Assembly: GCA_000827325.1 (NCBI GenBank)
Contig: KN832886.1
Location: 466,925 to 530,924 of the forward strand
Length of the DNA stretch: 64,000 nt
Reading direction: 5' to 3'
DNA from: Oidiodendron maius Zn
Taxonomy: Eukaryota; Ascomycota; Leotiomycetes; Myxotrichaceae
The notes beneath the pieces are model-generated. The model ran no database searches and was not told where the DNA came from. It saw only the letters and a list, made by a program, of their open reading frames with translations. How positions within the stretch are numbered: position 1 is the first letter of the stretch; the number at the start of each line of letters is the position of its first letter. Below, piece by piece: positions 7,718 through 53,432 of the stretch. Both the position numbers and the translations under genes were made by a program.

Positions 7718-8774
7718 GGACAAAAATGAAGGCAGATAGAATAAGAACCCTCTTAGCAAAGATTCTTGACAGGTTGAGAGGCCTGTGTTCTCACGGCTCT
7801 GTTCTGAACAAGGTTTATTAAGGATTCTCGAGGAGGATATCGGGGTTTACTAATGAGGTGTAGAGAAGTTTAATATGACTTTATAAAGAGTCATTGGAAT
7901 GATTTATATAGCAGGTGGAATAGGTCTATAAAAGATAAGTGGAAGTACAAGTCAAATATAGTGCTAAGCATATACTTTCTACTACATATTATATAAATCT
8001 AATCCCCTACGCTAATCAGTAAGAGAATGGAATACATCCACGGAAAACGGTGAATAAAAACGACCGAACGTTATTAACCAATATCTTCTCTCTTATAGGT
8101 AGGATATTCCGACACCTAGTACTGGAATATCCTCATCGTCAACTTCAACCCCCATCTCTACTTATAATATTGTATAGTCTTGCGAGAGACAAAGTCCTGG
8201 GCTTTTCTATCTACGCATTGACTCCATTATACCCTCAGTCTATCATGCCCAAAGGCCAGCCATAAAGCGCTCTTTCGCTCGTTATACTCGCTTCCGCACT
8301 GTGAGCATTCCGCCTCTGATTGATAGATCACGGCTCTGTGACTGCCTCGGCATGCCGGGCCTAAGAGTGCTGCTGTGAAGGAGTATAGTGACGTATAGCA
8401 ATCACAGGTGGGCGATTGTCATACTGGAGGGTGAATCTCAGAAGGCGTGTGGCGTGGCATTTGTAGAGATGCTGGACCTCTAGCCGATCTACGGAGCCAA
8501 GACCCTACTTCTTTCACAAACGAAGACCTAAGGAGAGGTATTGATCGGTGCTTTAGGCTCTATTTTTAATATCTGTCTTAATTTTTTAAAAGTTCTAAGT
8601 ACAAAATTCTATAACCAGATTTCCCGGACGATCGTGATGTCACTCCTTTTCATCCAACAGACTCCTGATATATATAACTACAAGTGATCAGTGATCAGAA
8701 ACTGGACATCTGCCCTTTTTAAATAGAATTTACAACTTTACTTATATATTTAAACTAGTAATATATCCTTTATT
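7718..8774. other. Intergenic, 1.05 kb
   Basis: AT-rich with no gene I can support. The stretch at 8260-8530 is more GC-rich and may be an old repeat fragment, but I could not assign it. Confidence 0.4.
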
Positions 8775-9379
8775 GACTAGGGCTTCAAGCACATATGTCA
8801 CGATGTCTCAGAAGCAGTGGCAATATACGCAATAGCATACGACTGTATAGTCGTAATGGCTTACGCATGTTGCCACATAAGCAGGCTTATAATAAGCGTT
8901 GCGCTCTGTAGTCTAAACCCCTAAGTTGTCTCTGCATCACTCAATAGTCAATATAACTGAGTTTCACCTTGATTCCGAACTACGACCTGTGCATCACCGA
9001 ACCTCTGATCAAGATCCTTTATAAGAATTACATATATTCATTATAGTCTATTTTAGTCTATAGGGTTTACTATATATTGCTAAAATACTTCTAAGATTAC
9101 TTTATAGGTATAACCCTTAATATTAAGACTATAATAATATCTTGATCAGAGGTTCGGTATTGCACAGGTTGTAGTTAGGAATCAAGGTGAAACTCAGTTA
9201 TATTGATTATTGAGTGATGCAGAGACAACTAAGGGGATTAGACTACAGAACACAACGCTTATTATATACCTGCTTAGGTAGCAACATGCGTAAGCCTTTA
9301 CGACTATACAGTCGTATGCCATTGTGTATGTTGCCACTAATTCTGAGATATCGTGATATGTATGCTTGAAGCCCTAGCC
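8775..9379. mobile_element. Foldback/MITE-like element with arms of about 240 bp
   Basis: Two long inverted arms, left 8775-9016 and right 9138-9379, flank an AT-rich loop of about 120 bp. Read outward to inward, both arms begin CTAGGGCTTCAAGC, share GCATACGACTGTATAGTCGT, GTTGTCTCTGCATCACTCAA and ATATAACTGAGTTTCACCTT, and end ACCGAACCTCTGATCAAGAT. They differ by scattered substitutions, many of them transitions. There is no coding capacity, so the element would be non-autonomous. An (ATT)n run directly follows the right arm, and a clear target-site duplication is not visible. One related arm recurs at 53101-53432. Confidence 0.8.
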
Positions 9380-9381
9380 AA

Positions 9382-9403
9382 TTATTATTATTATTATTAT
9401 TAT
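9382..9403. repeat. (ATT)n microsatellite
   Basis: About seven uninterrupted ATT units immediately beside the foldback element. Confidence 0.8.
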
Positions 9404-27955: not shown

Positions 27956-28560
27956 GGATGGACCAAGTTATGAGTACATCATGTATGATCCAGCCTCGTT
28001 CTCAAGCAAGGATGTACCCCCCTCTGGCCGCACACAATTGTGTCAAGACTTTAGCATGCGTTACAGTTCCAGCAGTCGCGATTGCTTTCGCGTCAGACCA
28101 ACGGTCTTTGAGTTGTCGAATTCCAAACAAGTGATCGCCGTGGCCGTGGGTAATGTAATATAGATGTACGTCAACTTCTTAGAAGGGGCAATTTCCTCCA
28201 TTCATTCAATAAACTCTTTAGCTTGGTCTTCTGAAATATGCGTATTCACATATACCGCTGCCAAGTCGCCGTGAATCAGCGCACAGTATATGGGCGACCA
28301 TCTACCAAAATCTCCAAGAGTTGCCAATATAGCGGAAATTCCTGTGTGCCGCCAATGCGTTCTAATTAACTCTCGTAGATGTCGTGGACAGGGCGATGTT
28401 ATACCGCTCCTTCAATCCTTAATAATACATTTGCTAACAAGAGTAACGTGCGTCCCTGAGTCGCGAGAAACCCCAGGTGCCGAGAACTCAACAGCATCTT
28501 GCCCTAGAACAATGCCATTTTTCAGCTGAGAGCGAGGATATTCTCGGAATAACTACTGCG
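27956..28560 (-). pseudogene. Metallo-beta-lactamase-fold hydrolase, decayed
   Basis: On the minus strand, frames read LKNGIVLGQDAVEFSAPGVS near 28530-28460, AVYVNTHISEDQAKEFIE with a TGA where related proteins have Trp (FIE-stop-MEEIAPSKKLTY), and then, after a frameshift at about 28155, ITHGHGDHLFGIRQLKDRWS and DAKAIATAGTVTHAKV. HGHGDH is the metal-binding HxHxDH motif. A candidate first intron begins GTAAGC at about 28617. Stop and frameshift show the gene is broken. Its 5' part and promoter are duplicated in inverted orientation at 34905-35484. Confidence 0.75.
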
Positions 28561-29035
28561 ATCTGCAAGCTATATTTTCGTGTCAATATCAAATGGAAGT
28601 AACTCCTGCTTACCACACAATACTGCTTTCCAATATAAGTGAAGTTTTAAATCAAATCGCTCCAGCCAGCCTTAGCTGTCGAGCCGTTGACTAATGTTCT
28701 CAAAGTTCTTATATAGTATAGATTAACGTATAGAGACGCTATCCCGAGATTTCCCGCCTCATTCCTACAGTGCTCGCGCAATTACAGCCATTGTTGTCGC
28801 AACAACTGAAACCCATGGGCAGGGATTACAACCACGATGCGTCCGAAAGCAGTATAGCGACAAAGCGGGGTCATGCTTTGCTACATCAGATGAAGTGGCT
28901 TGTCTGTTCAATTAAGCGCCTCCTCTCGTGACGTTAGGCGCCTGGGTGCTCCGCTGCTCGCACTCTTGCACACAACCACTGCCTATATAAGCACCTGTCC
29001 CCCCGTACCCCCCTATGCACTCAATCGAAATCTCC
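28444..29035 (+). repeat. Left copy of a long inverted duplication
   Basis: About 590 bp that match the reverse complement of 34905-35484, with scattered substitutions and small indels. Shared landmarks, read left to right here: TAACGTGCGTC, GCGAGAAACCC, TTTTCAGCT, ATATTCTCGGAAT, AATATCAAATGG, TGCTTACCA, GCGCAATTACAG or its counterpart, GGGCAGGGAT, CATCAGATGAAGTGG and CCTATATAAGCA. The copy spans the 5' part of the lactamase relic and the promoter plus 5' leader of the HET gene at 29058, so it is a divergent-promoter cassette. Confidence 0.8.
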
Positions 29036-29057
29036 TGCAGCAGTTGTTCACGCAGAC

Positions 29058-31260
29058 ATGACATCAGATCTATATGTCTACCTCCCTCTCGACGTTGGCC
29101 AAGAAGAGATTCGCCTCTTCATTCTTTCGCCTGGACACTACGATGACCCGATCCAGGGGGTGATACGCCACACCCCCCTGCCGGAGTTGAGCTACCTTCC
29201 AGATAATCGACTGTCGCTTAAGGAGCTGCGAGCTTCTCTGGTCCCTCCGTGGAGGGCATTCGAAACAGTCGAGCACAGATACATCTTTGAAGAAGATGAA
29301 AAAGACGAGTGCTCTTGGGTCCACCCAAACCCCCTCTTCGAGCAAAAGCTCTATGCAGGATATGGAAGAGACCCAGATCCGGAGTATGAACCAAAATATG
29401 AAGCCTTGTCCTATGTTTGGGGATCTCAAGAAATCCCGGAAATACTGTCTATCCAAGATCAGTCAGGAAGCCTCCGTACACTCCCCATCACTCAGAACCT
29501 GGCTATTGCTCTTCGGCATCTTCGACACCGAGAAAATCCGCGAACGCTCTGGGTGGATGCGATTTGTATCAATCAAAGCGACATTAGCGACAAGAATTAT
29601 CAAGTTCCACGAATGAGATTCATCTACAAGTTTGCTCAAAGAACAATATTCTGGCTGGGGCCTTCCTCCGAATCTAGCTCTCATGCACTCTCTACACTAA
29701 GCCATCTTGGCAAACAAATTGAGATCACAGTCGACGACTGGCGACTGCGCTCTGCAGAGGCTACTCATCCTGATTGGTACCATAGCCGAACGACATTGCC
29801 ATATAGCCAAGAAACATGGCAGGCTCTCGACAATCTACTCAAACGACCGTGGTTCGGAAGACTCTGGGTCATACAAGAGGTAAAGCTCAGCAACCGATTT
29901 GCGCTTGTCCAGTGTGGGGCCGAAACACTCAGTTGGAGTCTGTTTCAACGTGCGCTACGGTGTCTCTTCTACAAGACAATGCCCACCGCAGAATTGACCG
30001 ACCGAATAAGTGGTACGACCCCTTTCATATACGACAGCGTGACTTTTGCTGGCATTCTTTCGCGGGCCAGGCAGAAAGGATGCTCAAACCCCTTAGATCG
30101 CGTTTACGGGGTCCTGAGTTTGACCCCTCAATGTATCGCCGACAAGCTGCACGTCGACTATTCGCTTTCCCCAGCAGATGTTTTCAAGCAGAGCTTCCTA
30201 GCAGACTTGAAACAAATCGGCCGCTTGGATTTCTTGCAGTACGTTTCATTAGAGCGTGTTACGGCGAACCTTCCGACATGGGTGCCAGACTGGGCATTTC
30301 CGCCAAAGTTTGCAAAAAGGAGATACTACAGTAGTTTCTGCAGTGGTTTCTCGGCTGCTCACGCACAAAACCACTCGTCACGTCTTCTTGACGTTGTGGG
30401 AATCAAGATCGCTACTGTGGAAACGACGAGCCCACTTTTGACAGATGATCTTGACCAAGTATCACACGTCATCCGACAATTCGACCCACCGGCCTTGGAG
30501 GGAATCAATTACATCAATGGCGATTCTTCTCTCGACTGTTTCGTCCGAACGCTCACCATGGGTCTCATCAAAGACCTTTATCCGCTTTCCGATGCCTTTG
30601 GTTCTCTAGAGCACTGGAAGAAAATACTGAAAAAATTGGCAACGAATGACACTGATTTCCAAAGCGACGGCAGTACTAGTCGACTCCGGTACATTCTTGC
30701 GGAAATACAAGGTCGCATGATGGTCACTCCCCAAGAAGGCTACTTCGGGTTGGCTTCTGATGGCGTGCAGAGAGGTAGGGTTTCACTGAACACTGTGTAA
30801 GTAATTCGGCATCTCATTGATCATAGGTGATGAAATATGCGTGGTTCTAGGTTGCCACATGCCAATTGTCCTACGACCACTTTTACCGATGGCGAACCCT
30901 ACCGGTAACGAGTATGAGGTGATAGGCGTCTGCTATGTAGATGGGGTCTCGCACGGGGAGAGCCTGCTCGGTCCTATTCCAACACCGTGGCAGCTGCGAA
31001 TCATTTTTGACGATCTCGGCATCTTCACACCGCAATTCGTGAACGCAGACTCCGGGGAGACAACATTTGAGGATCCGAGGCTAGCAACCGTCCCTAGAGA
31101 CTGGGAGGAGCTCGAAGCCATTCGATCGCCTGGAGATCCGACTTTATTCAAGAGATTCCACAACAAAATCTCCGGAGAGATAATCAATTCGGATCCTAGA
31201 ATGTCTCCGGAAGCGTTAGAGCAAAGAGGTGTTAAGCTGCAAACGTTTACCCTAGTTTAA
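29058..31260 (+). CDS. HET-domain protein (heterokaryon incompatibility type)
   Basis: 716-aa protein. Exons 29058-30774 and 30827-31260; the 52-nt intron (GTAGGG...CATAG) joins VQRG to DEICVVLGC, the conserved C-terminal block of this family. Seen: HET domain from about residue 114 with YEALSYVWGSQE, TLPITQNLAIALRHLR, LWVDAICINQSDISDKNYQV and RTIFWLG (to about 201), then RPWFGRLWVIQEV. Downstream are the expected NPLDRVYGVLSL and LPTWVPDW. HET domains trigger growth arrest or cell death when partner alleles differ. The promoter has TATATAAG at 28984. The coding frame is intact, unlike its neighbours. A decayed NLR lies 1.1 kb downstream on the same strand; such NLRs often partner HET proteins. 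Confidence 0.9.
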
Positions 31261-32368
31261 TCTTCAGAAGACTCCAATTATCAGCCTTTTTCTTCCTCGT
31301 TTTCACTGCAGATTGAGCCACACACAAGACTCCCTCTCGCTCATATCCTCGGCATCTATTCGCTCATATCCTCGGCATCTATTCCGCATAGAGAGTTTTA
31401 TCCATGGTAACTAGTCAATCCTACGAGAACCATCCAGCTAGCAAATGTCACGGTCTGGAAGCCATCCCATGTCATCTATTACACCAAGAACGCACGAATC
31501 TAGCATGTGGGTTGCTGGAGCCGCCGGGTGCTAAAAGTATCAGGGGATATTCCAAGGAACATGACTAACGTGACCGCGGTATTAAAACAGGAGACTACCT
31601 AGATAGTACACAGTACCGTACTTACCCTAGTAGAAGGTATAATTGCGGCAGACGGGACCAAAGGAAGCAAATAAGAGCAAAGTGTATTTAGAGCTAAGGG
31701 AAGCCCTTCGGTTGAAACGCCTCTTGGCATCCTCGGTGTTGGGGCGTTGTCGCCTTAGCCTGCGGTGTTGTAGCCTCAGTGCGGTGTTGCAGGACAACGG
31801 CTATGTCTTGAGATCGCGCTGCAGGCGCTCTCTTTCTCTTTTCCTCTTCTTTAGCTTAGACTTATTCGAGTAATACCATTCTTTGCTCACTTCGACTTAC
31901 GCTGGTTTCAGTTTGAAAGTTGGTGCCGAAATTGCGGCCAAGCTGGACATATTCGAGGCAGTCAACGGCATTGTTGAAGAGGCCGGCAAGGGCGAGAACG
32001 CCGATAGCGAGGCCAGCTGGTTCCATCGAAGGATGCAGAGGCAGGGGATTACGGAAGCTACTCGGGCAAACTAGCGAAAGTGGTGCTGGTGCGATGTGCG
32101 GCCCGAAGCGGGGCTATTTGACTCTAAAGTCCTCTCTGAGGGCGAAGCGCAATGGCTGTACTGGCGTCCAAGCTTGCGCATGGGGTTTGCCGCCCAGGAA
32201 TCGTTCAGCTGTGGCTGCTGCTGCTCGACAGCCATGCAACGCTGTCTTGGAATCATCCACTACGGCTATCATAGAGATGCATCTTCAATCAAGTCATTCT
32301 CAACTTACAAGTAGCTTGTTTCATCATTCTTCCTCTTTGACGCATGACTCTCCGTCCCTCTGGCTAGG
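31261..32368. other. Intergenic with a short tandem duplication
   Basis: No gene I can support. A 23-bp unit, CGCTCATATCCTCGGCATCT plus ATT, is repeated exactly twice at about 31338-31383. Frames at 31643-32310 show no known motif. Confidence 0.4.
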
Positions 32369-34815
32369 ATGGCCACACCAGCCGATCCTCCTGTCGGCAT
32401 CACCAACGCAGGAGGAAAGGTTGCGATCCAGGCAGTCAACTACAATGCCCATGGAGAGACTGTCGTGAAGTAAGTTCTTCCAGGTTGATTATTTCTACTC
32501 ACAGCCCTGCTGACACGACTTACTCACTGATAGCGTTGGGCGCGACGAGGATCTACTCACCCGACTACCGTACGCTGCCGAAGCACCCTTCAACTCCTAC
32601 GCGAAGCAACACGAACCCACCTGCCTCCCCGACACCAATGTCGATCTCCTCCAAACGATATACAATTGGGCTGATGGACAAGATGAGCGGTGCATCTTCT
32701 GGCTGAACGGCCTTGCTGGCACGGGGAAGTCGACGATTGCTCGGACTGTCGCCCGCAAGTACTTCGATGAGTAGCGTCTCGGAGCCAGCTTCTTCTTCTC
32801 AAGAGGCGGCGGAGATGTCGGCCATGCTGGCAAGTTCTGCATGACTGTTGCGGTTCAGCTTACAGGACGCATTTCGACTCTCCGTCAGTATATGTATGAC
32901 ACCATTATAGAGCACGGCGATATTGCAAAGCTGTCACTCCATAACCAGTAGCAAGAGCTAGTCCTCAAACCGCTATCGAAGCTAAGCGAGGACTCCTGTC
33001 TGCCATTGTACATTTTTGTTATTGATGCACTCGATAAGTATAAGAACGATAACGATATTCGTACAATTCTATATCTCCTGTCTAAAGTTCACTCTCTGAA
33101 TGCAGTCCGGCTATAAATCCTTCTTACAAGCAGGCCTGAGATTCCGATCCGCTATAGGTTCTACTAGATCCCTAATACAGAACATCAAGTCTTTATTCTC
33201 TATAATATATCACCGTCAATTATAGACTATAACATTTATATCTTTCTGAAACACAGCTTTAAACATCTCTGACAAGTATAATCTCTGGATACCGGCTGAC
33301 CAGGCGAAGAGGTCATTATATATTAGGTCTAGATTGCAAGTGGACTGTTTATCTGGGCTGCAACTGTATATCGGTTCGTTTATAAAGGGTAACGATTTAC
33401 AGCGAAAAGACTTGTTACAATTCTTCAGAGTAGTAATAGCGCTCTAATAGGACCAGAGAAACACCTTGATAAGATTTATACTACTATCCTTAAACACTCA
33501 ATTCCGGAAGAGTTCACGAATAACGAGAGAGAAGAGGCTTCTTATATGTTAAGGTAGATCCTTGAGTGTATAGTCACCCTCTCCTCACCTCTTTCTGTAT
33601 ACTCTCTTGGCAAGCTGCTCTGAGTCATGGAAGGAGATATTAATCAGACTTTAGATAACCTACACTCTATCCTCGACGTTCTTAAGGATCAGACCCGACC
33701 CCTTTATCTCTACTATCTATCATTCCGTGACTTCCTCCTCGATCAAAAGAGATATACAGATTCAAATTTCTAGGTGGACAAGAGGCAAGTACATCAGGCG
33801 TTAGTAGAGAGCTGTATACGGCTTATATTGAACTCCCTTAAGCAAGACATCTGTAGGCCGGAAGCTCCTGGCGCGCTTGTTGCCGAAGTGGAGAACAATC
33901 GAGTAGATAGATGTCTCCCTCTAGAAGTTCAGTACGCTTGCCTCTACTGAGTCGAGCATCTCCAGAAGAGCGACGTTCAGCTTCACGACGACGACGACGA
34001 CGAAGTCCATGAATTTCTACAGACTCACTTTCTTCATTGGCTCGAGGCGCTCAGCTGGATGCGGAGGATGTCTGAAGGGATCCTCGCCATCAGAAGTCTA
34101 GATTCTATTGCGCTTGTGAGTCTGCTATGCTCCTAGCTCGTCTAGAGAATACCACTAACACTTAATGCCGACATCCAGCTGTCTTCAACTGTCCGCCTTC
34201 ATTCACGACATAAAGCGATTCACCCTCAACGGTCGGCCGGCGATCGAGCAGGCTCCCCTGCAAACATATAGTAGTGCACTCATTTTCGCACCTGACAAGA
34301 GCTTGGTGAAGAAACAGTTCGAAGATGAGATACTTAAGTGGATGAAAAGATTGGCCAAAGTCCAAGAAGACTAGAGTGCATCGCTCCAGACTCTCGAGGG
34401 CCACGGCGACGGGGTCACGTCGGTGGCATTCTCGCCGGACGGCGCGCTGCTGGCGTCGGGTTCGAGCGACAAGACGGTGCAGCTGTGGGACGCGGCCACG
34501 GGTGCCGCACTCAAGACGATCGCGCTTGCCTCCTTCGTCAACGTCCTCTTGTTCAGTTCGGATGAATCTTTCATAGAGACTAATCATGGGCTTCTGCACG
34601 TCGAAGGCCTGCAAGGTCGCGACGCGCTCGGCGTCGAGCCGCCGCCGGACGTACTCTGATCTCAACCTCACATCTTTGTAGACAGGAATTGGGTTCTGCG
34701 GCGCTCGCAAAAGCTTCTCTGGCTCCTTATCGGTTATCGCGGAAACTGCTCAGCCGTTAGAGGTGGCATTCTTGTGTTGGGGCACAACGACGGCTGACTC
34801 ACATTCATGGAGATT
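32369..34815 (+). pseudogene. NACHT-WD40 NLR (NWD/STAND protein), decayed
   Basis: Relic of a fungal NOD-like receptor. The ATG at 32369 opens a short N-terminal exon (to 32469), a 64-nt intron follows, then a frame reads TNVDLLQTIYNWADGQDERC and the P-loop GLAGTGKSTIARTVARKYF, ending at a TAG at 32772. The NACHT frame continues beyond as LGASFFFSRGGGDVGHAGKF, PLYIFVIDALDKYKND (Walker B) and ILLTSRPEIPIRYRF, and later HLDKIYTTILKHSIPEEF, with many stops. After an intron near 34120-34182 come LSSTVRLHSRHKAIHP or, in the family frame, LSAFIHDIKRFTLNGRPAIE, then one GC-rich WD40 unit ([20 protein letters not shown] and [12 protein letters not shown]), and a C-terminal cap with DRNWVLRRSQKLLWL. 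Only one WD repeat remains. Confidence 0.88.
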
Positions 34816-34904
34816 GGCCGGCATGGCTAGGATTACTTGGGGCCGCATCTACGTAAGCGTAGCTAGCATGTTGCAGTTTGATTATTAGTATTTTATTTTC
34901 CTAG

Positions 34905-35484
34905 AATCTCTATTGCATAGAGGGGTCCGAGGGAACAGATGCTTATATAGACAATGGTGGTGGATTCACGGATGATTCTGGAAAGTGAGAGGCGCTTAAC
35001 GTCTACGAGGGAAGGTGGTTAGCAACCACTTCATCTGATGTGGCGAAGCATGCCCCCCCCCTTTTTCGCTATACTGCTGCTTTTGGACGCGTCGTGGTTG
35101 TGATCCCTGCCCGTAGATTGCAGTTGTTGCGAGAACAATGACTGCAGTAGCGCAAGCACTATAGGAACGAGGTGGTAAGTCTCACGATTGCGTCTCTGCA
35201 CATTTATCTATACTGTAGGAGAATTTTGGGAAGATTAGCTAACTGCTCGATAGCTGAGGCCGGCCAGAGTGACCGGATTCAAACTGCGCTCACACTTGAA
35301 AGCTATATTACATGGTAAGCAGAAGCTACTCCCATTTGATATTGATATTAAAATGTAACTAGTGAGTCGCATTATTCATTCCGAGAATATCATTGCTCTG
35401 AGCTGAAAACTGACATTGTTATGAGGTAAGGTGTCGGCGAGTTCTCGGCACGTAGGGTTTCTCGCGTCATAGCGACGCACGTTA
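34905..35484 (-). repeat. Right copy of a long inverted duplication
   Basis: Reverse complement of the block at 28444-29035, about 80% similar by eye. It contains a CTTATATA box at 34942 matching the HET-gene TATA in the left copy, and GTAAGCAGAAG at about 35312 matching the lactamase first-intron donor. No HET or lactamase coding region follows on either side, so this is an orphan copy of the divergent promoter. Confidence 0.8.
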
Positions 35485-53078: not shown

Positions 53079-53100
53079 GGCTTGATATTATTTCTTGAAG

Positions 53101-53432
53101 TAGAGGTTCAGTAGTGCGCAGGTTGTAGTCAGGAATCAAGGTGAAAACTCAGTTATATTGACTATAGGCTTTCGGCATAGCAGTATGCAGAAAGGCTTTC
53201 GGCATAGCTGATATGCTGAAAGCAGTGAATAACTTAAAATGATGCAGAGATAACTTAAGGAACCTCCTTAGGAATGCAATACAGTCCTTATATATATGCT
53301 TCCAGTCTTGTAGGACTCGTAAGCTCTATATGCAAGCTCAATGCAAGAGGACTGAGCACTCAATGTATAGGCTCTGTGCGTGTATCAGTGCGGTATCACC
53401 TTTCATATGCTTGAGGACCTGATATCAGTCAA
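53101..53432 (+). repeat. Repeat related to the 8775-9379 foldback arm
   Basis: Shares AGAGGTTC, GCGCAGGTTGTAGT, GGAATCAAGGTGAAA and CTCAGTTATATTGA with the right arm of the foldback element, in the same orientation, and ends with the similar TATGCTTGAGG. An internal extra segment duplicates AGGCTTTCGGCATAGC twice (53166-53212). Only one arm is present. Confidence 0.75.

Follow-up and report, generated by a model that had tools for sequence, protein, structure and literature searches.

Positions 28444-35484 of a 64-kb window of the Oidiodendron maius Zn genome very probably represent a single DNA transposon, 7.04 kb long, old and non-autonomous, that belongs to a divergent, long-armed branch of a Tc1/mariner family in this genome, with cargo genes travelling between its ends. 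The window is the whole stretch of DNA that was analyzed and sits on contig C17 (KN832886.1); genome searches covered 58 contigs (C numbers) with a total of 45.9 Mb. The features observed in the sequence were inverted ends with sharp TA borders, copies dispersed among unrelated flanks, one copy with a transposase frame and others with pieces of one, and HET or NLR genes lying inside the ends.

A reading made earlier from the sequence alone (the sequence-only reading) had reported an inverted repeat here, and self-comparison of the whole window by BLAST bore this out. Positions 34914-35484 matched 29019-28444 in inverted orientation (E=1.7e-105; 75% identity over 587 columns, gaps included), and only one other off-diagonal nucleotide match in the window was stronger. 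In a global alignment, 438 of 558 ungapped columns were identical; the differences were 81 transitions and 39 transversions, and a further 29 columns contained gaps. The left arm (28444-29019, plus strand) and the right arm (34914-35484, minus strand) thus formed terminal inverted repeats, with the outer ends at 28444 and 35484. Homology stopped abruptly at an outer TAACGT in both arms, whose border TA dinucleotides lie at 28444-28445, possibly one half of a TA target duplication, and at 35483-35484. The inner limit of homology was at ~29019-29025, ~33 bp 5' of the HET start codon at 29058. As the sequence-only reading had proposed for its TATA box, the box TATATAAG was present in both arms (28984-28991, plus strand; 34942-34949, minus strand), and the window HET gene, judged by sequence, may be driven from a promoter in the left arm. 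Since the arms were only 78% identical, recent gene conversion between them is unlikely.

Three other explanations of the arms or of their divergence were set aside. Solo long terminal repeats were ruled out by ends that are not TG...CA and by the existence of inward pairs. Repeat-induced point mutation (RIP) left no clear signature in the arm divergence, with 22 of 81 transitions in CA/TG context and indices near the window average. A Helitron reading, raised by a hairpin-like stretch seen by eye near the end, was given up after a DDE transposase turned up.

A dispersed family of TAACGT ends and its cargo

Genome searches with the left arm recovered the right arm and, as a weaker match, a copy at C1:5583437 (E=5.7e-7), while blastn with the right arm recovered only the left arm. 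The C1 copy begins at the same TAACGT, 16 bases past an open reading frame (ORF) that by eye resembles asparagine synthase, and no HET gene was seen among the ORFs surrounding it. A search with this copy led to further copies on C4, C11, and C8, and a search with the C4 copy found an inverted partner 4.5 kb away. The resulting pair (C4:501267-505780) encloses HET, NB-ARC, and TPR frames, and first pointed to the arms as the ends of a transposon.

A first end pattern of 28 bases had 58 matches in the genome against one for its reversed control, and a second pattern had 97 against none; merged, they gave 113 distinct ends. Neighboring ends no more than 12 kb apart faced inward in 19 cases, outward in three, and the same way in five. 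Fifteen of the 19 inward pairs were read, the unread ones being C1:868057 (0.44 kb), C4:156412, C18:922105, and C31:70249. Terminal inverted repeats were 27-70 bp long in 12 of the pairs read, ~200 bp in the C13 pair, and at least ~500 bp in those of the window and C4. The elements spanned 3.1-9.6 kb and had host genes inside, unlike a compact element with a single transposase ORF. Family copies that were read had a sharp border, and outside flanks (24 of 80 bp each, from 12 of the 15 elements, without C4, C18:351322, and C30:84806) showed no mutual similarity at E 0.01.

The two ends of many elements diverge past the first ~45 bases into two types, X and Y. Nine other elements were compared with the C30:84806 copy for X, and seven of them could be aligned with it for 334-552 bp starting at base 1, the other two in shorter or broken stretches; for Y, seven of eight others were alignable along 312-998 bp and one along 97 bp. 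The majority sequence of the terminal repeat holds two GTGCCGAAAA motifs, which are putative transposase binding sites. The end repeats were identical at 44-45 of 45 positions in the C30:84806, C5, and C25 elements.

Some ends stood out by sequence or arrangement. Four of them (C1:213555, C5:1954325, C14:72046, C30:114331) share the identical variant TAACGTCTATCCCTGCGTGCCGAGACGCAC, a candidate for another end subfamily. The inward pair at C1:868057-868498, with ends 0.44 kb apart, resembles a miniature inverted-repeat transposable element (MITE). An outer second pair of ends (C18:350819-359290, L066) surrounds the C18:351322-358218 element, forming a nested insertion. Two dispersed arm copies (L052 1501-2013 and L053 1501-1878; 88% identity over 368 bp) have an identical junction to ~190 bp of other sequence, a pattern as in an internally deleted subfamily.

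HET, NLR, or HeLo genes lay within 12 of the 15 pairs read, or 11 of 14 without the window, which was the route by which the family was found. Both HET and NLR-type genes were enclosed in the window pair (28444-35484; HET and dead NACHT-WD40), the C4 pair, C30:152273 (HET, NACHT, WD40), and C18:351322-358218 (HET, NACHT, WD40). The C30:140922 pair carries HET, C13 a partial HET, and C30:84806-91836 a HET-WD40 gene together with a transposase. NACHT was found at C1:2463687, C15, and C18:374890 (the last with ankyrin-like repeats seen by eye), NB-ARC/NACHT with a weak hydrolase match at C5, and a HeLo piece adjoining a zinc-finger frame at C17:302042. The three other pairs contain a short-chain dehydrogenase (C3), an enoyl-CoA hydratase and frames without Pfam match (C25), and a zinc-cluster factor with an alpha/beta hydrolase (C2). 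Among the unread pairs, C31 has an NPHP3_N match with one stop, and C1:868057, C4:156412, and C18:922105 contain none of the best 150 HET or best 150 NPHP3_N places.

The HET regions of the C4, C13, C18:351322, C30:152273, and C30:84806 elements were 53-70% identical to one another; the window and C30:140922 HET proteins were 26% identical, and the C1 and C15 NACHT proteins 28%. The family carries several gene lineages, acquired through repeated capture or held in long coexistence. The HET and NLR families are large in this genome, and the lists used here, the best 150 of 481 HET candidates and the best 150 of 218 NPHP3_N candidates, are both lower bounds. Together with the 53-70% relatedness of some cargo genes, the size of these families would suit a spread of HET and NLR genes by segmental duplication, with the repeated ends as conserved flanks of the genes. 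This is quite unlikely, because the ends enclose non-homologous cargo (HET-only, HET-NACHT-WD40, HET-NB-ARC-TPR, NACHT, HeLo, short-chain dehydrogenase, enoyl-CoA hydratase), the sequences outside them are unrelated, and a transposase frame exists.

The position of HET and NLR genes relative to the 113 ends was polar. Within 5 kb, genes from the two lists were found on the inner side only at 34 ends and on the outer side only at four (p=6e-7), where uniform scatter predicts 3.6 ends per side. The corresponding numbers were 26 versus 2 at 3 kb and 33 versus 7 at 8 kb. The four outer-only cases at 5 kb were two C18 ends, C30:84806, and C34:123800. Among the 75 ends outside inward pairs, 17 were inner-only and two outer-only at 5 kb (p=7e-4).

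TA borders, transposase and proposed mechanism

TA began 27 of 28 ends in the 14 pairs tabulated, a count biased by the second end pattern, which included TA; in the nine pairs already recovered by the first pattern, itself free of TA, the count was 17 of 18 ends. The C30:84806-91836 pair, whose end repeats were identical at 44 of 45 positions, contains an uninterrupted frame of 596 amino acids with DDE_1 (2.9e-33) and HTH_Tnp_Tc5 (2.1e-5) domains. A HET-WD40 frame adjoins this transposase frame; its HET domain was recognized by blastp (53-63% to other cargo HET proteins), and its listed Pfam matches were WD40-type models. Related transposase pieces were found by tblastn within the C25 and C3 pairs and, by search position, within the C31 pair, while tblastn with the C30 transposase found none in the other copies read. 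The TAACGT-end family was assigned to Tc1/mariner because its ACGT termini, TA, repeat length, and transposase domains match that group, and we take its subgroup to be Fot1.

A transposase-like frame seen by eye in the C5 element (L061:5994-6692) was rejected as the family enzyme. It had no Pfam match at 0.01 and no useful match in the PDB, and among its genome relatives only the frame itself lies inside a pair that was read. It also shares an inner repeat pair with the C5 NLR. These inner 40-bp inverted repeats (TGTGCACCCC) enclose the NLR and the transposase-like frame, which is of another kind, within the C5 element (L061 826-6759), and possibly represent a second transposon type carrying an NLR, nested in a TAACGT element.

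We propose that the DDE transposase encoded by the family would recognize ends starting with ACGT. Cut-and-paste at the terminal repeats is the most likely route, in which the element would be excised and reinserted at TA. The sequence between the ends would move along, in most copies read with one or a few HET, NLR, or HeLo genes that replace the transposase gene or lie beside it. On these terms, the family transposase would move the copies described here, the border TA would be a true target duplication, and movement of the elements would spread allorecognition genes. Possible reasons for the predominance of HET and NLR genes are a bias in capture, retention by selection, and an advantage to the element.

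A broader claim, in which we place somewhat less belief than doubt, is that this Fot1-type lineage is a vehicle that has repeatedly captured and scattered whole genes of the HET, NLR, and HeLo kinds, drawn from several unrelated lineages. The large HET and NLR repertoire of this genome would then derive from it to a substantial extent, as would presence/absence differences at incompatibility loci.

Family membership of the window element

A profile of the long arms was built from five copies outside the window (C1, both C4 arms, C11, and C8). It matched the left arm at profile positions 1-440 (E=3.9e-32) and the right arm at 1-385 (E=2.9e-28), while other matches in the window began at an E value of 0.74, and none in the reversed window was better than 2.5. 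With the first 120 positions removed and four copies used, the arms were still matched at 8.7e-10 and 1.3e-7. A second profile, made from the first 44 bases of 26 ends without the window and C4, ranked the left (1.1e-4) and right (5.8e-4) arms first and second in the window, followed by matches of 0.38 in the window and 0.41 in its reversed version.

Several observations weigh against the interpretation of the window as a cargo-carrying member of this family. The arms matched the X and Y profiles, which represent the transposase-bearing type, over only ~42-51 bases, and a pairwise comparison with the C1 copy gave nothing above background once its first 109 bp were passed, whereas the five-copy profile did. 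Searching the window with the C30 transposase (tblastn, 0.01) revealed no transposase trace. For the family as a whole, three of the 15 pairs carry cargo other than HET, NLR, or HeLo genes, and no empty site was found in this genome, so that the TA is possibly part of the end and not a duplication. To these are added the TA bias of the second pattern, the restriction of the polarity lists to the best 150 places each, and the non-independence of an element's two ends, which makes the polarity of unpaired ends the safer comparison.

The short match to X and Y, and the absence of a third copy from the blastn search with the right arm, would fit a real cargo-transposon family that the window arms, as an unrelated inverted repeat, resemble by chance. 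This is highly unlikely, as the five-copy profile matched both arms, also past its first 120 positions, and the 26-end profile placed them first and second in the window. Because the profiles match the arms, the X and Y matches are short, and a transposase trace is absent, the window element is classified, from sequence comparison, as an old, non-autonomous, long-armed branch of the TAACGT-end family.

The sequence-only reading had also placed two genes between the inverted copies, one an intact HET gene and the other a dead NACHT-WD40 NLR, and both were confirmed, all parts lying on the plus strand. The HET gene (exons 29058-30774 and 30827-31260, with splice sites picked by eye) encodes 716 amino acids in a frame that is open with one intron removed, and has a HET domain (PF06985, E=1.2e-34). 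The genome encodes no close paralogue of its protein, whose next best match there is 33% identical. The dead NLR comprises a NACHT (NPHP3_N) stretch at 32655-33134 with three internal stops (PF24883, 1.8e-22 at C17:499579-500058) and a WD40 remnant at 34378-34656 (PF00400, E=1.8e-15).

What found no support was the origin proposed for the arms, namely that the divergent promoter between a lactamase relic and the HET gene had been copied in inverted orientation along with both genes, and that the second pair later disappeared. Although the left arm stops just 5' of the HET gene and has a TATA box, this is extremely unlikely, as the same end occurs at many loci (several without a HET gene, most not tested for one), faces inward around different genes, including NLR-only and other cargo, and has sharp borders on both sides. 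When 40 other loci with a HET domain (37 distinct places) were compared with a 127-bp end model, one matched, and its repeat points away from the HET gene; this test is limited in that the loci reached only 1.5 kb past the HET domain. The putative lactamase relic lies outside the left arm; its HGHGDH-like motif (minus strand, ~28140) was seen by eye, and no family search was made.

Elsewhere in the window, the strongest off-diagonal match was a near-perfect palindrome of 611 bp at 8772-9382 (83% arm identity). Two related pieces lie near 53.1 kb (53087-53165), and it is probably another small repeat element.

Comparison with known mobile elements

Tc1/mariner elements of Sclerotinia sclerotiorum are described, in the part of the report consulted (PMC4188875), as 1.8-2.3 kb long with one transposase ORF and terminal repeats of 36-70 bp. 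The elements studied here resemble them, as far as that part goes, in the ACGT termini, TA, repeats of tens of bases, and a transposase with DDE and HTH_Tnp_Tc5 domains, and differ in being 3.1-9.6 kb long, mostly without a transposase, and with host genes inside. In plants, Pack-type transposons are terminal-repeat elements in which host genes replace the transposase, mostly as gene fragments of many families. The cargo described here, unlike theirs, consists mostly of HET and NLR genes, several with long open frames.

Starships are cargo-carrying mobile elements of fungi with NLR genes among their recurrent cargo; the excerpts consulted give sizes of 170-196 kb for Sanctuary and up to ~700 kb, and a DUF3435 tyrosine recombinase (PMC12506042, PMC12134995). 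Compared with these descriptions, the elements here are far smaller and have a DDE transposase, which argues against a Starship; no DUF3435 search was made.

The nearest published precedent found, from partial texts, was ToxTA (formerly ToxhAT) of wheat-associated fungi, a Tc1/mariner-like element of ~14 kb with a TA duplication, 74-bp terminal repeats, and cargo including a patatin-TPR gene assigned to the NLR family (PMC12506042, PMC6737239). The two systems are alike, as described, in being Tc1/mariner-type elements with cargo genes, an NLR-family type among them. According to the same excerpts, ToxTA is one element known for ToxA, unlike the dispersed family of HET and NLR carriers found here. 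A Tc1/mariner family with HET or NLR cargo was not found in the literature covered (titles and beginnings of abstracts, open-licence PMC), and the TAACGT-end family, judged by its ends and genes, appears to be of a known Tc1/mariner kind with a new cargo.

Expansion and renewal of the HET and NLR repertoire are expected to conflict with repeat defenses such as RIP, according to the part of PMC12258605 consulted. The family suggests a way for these self/non-self recognition genes to spread. Being small and recognizable by sequence, with HET and NLR cargo and one copy that bears a transposase, it opens one route of repertoire expansion to testing.

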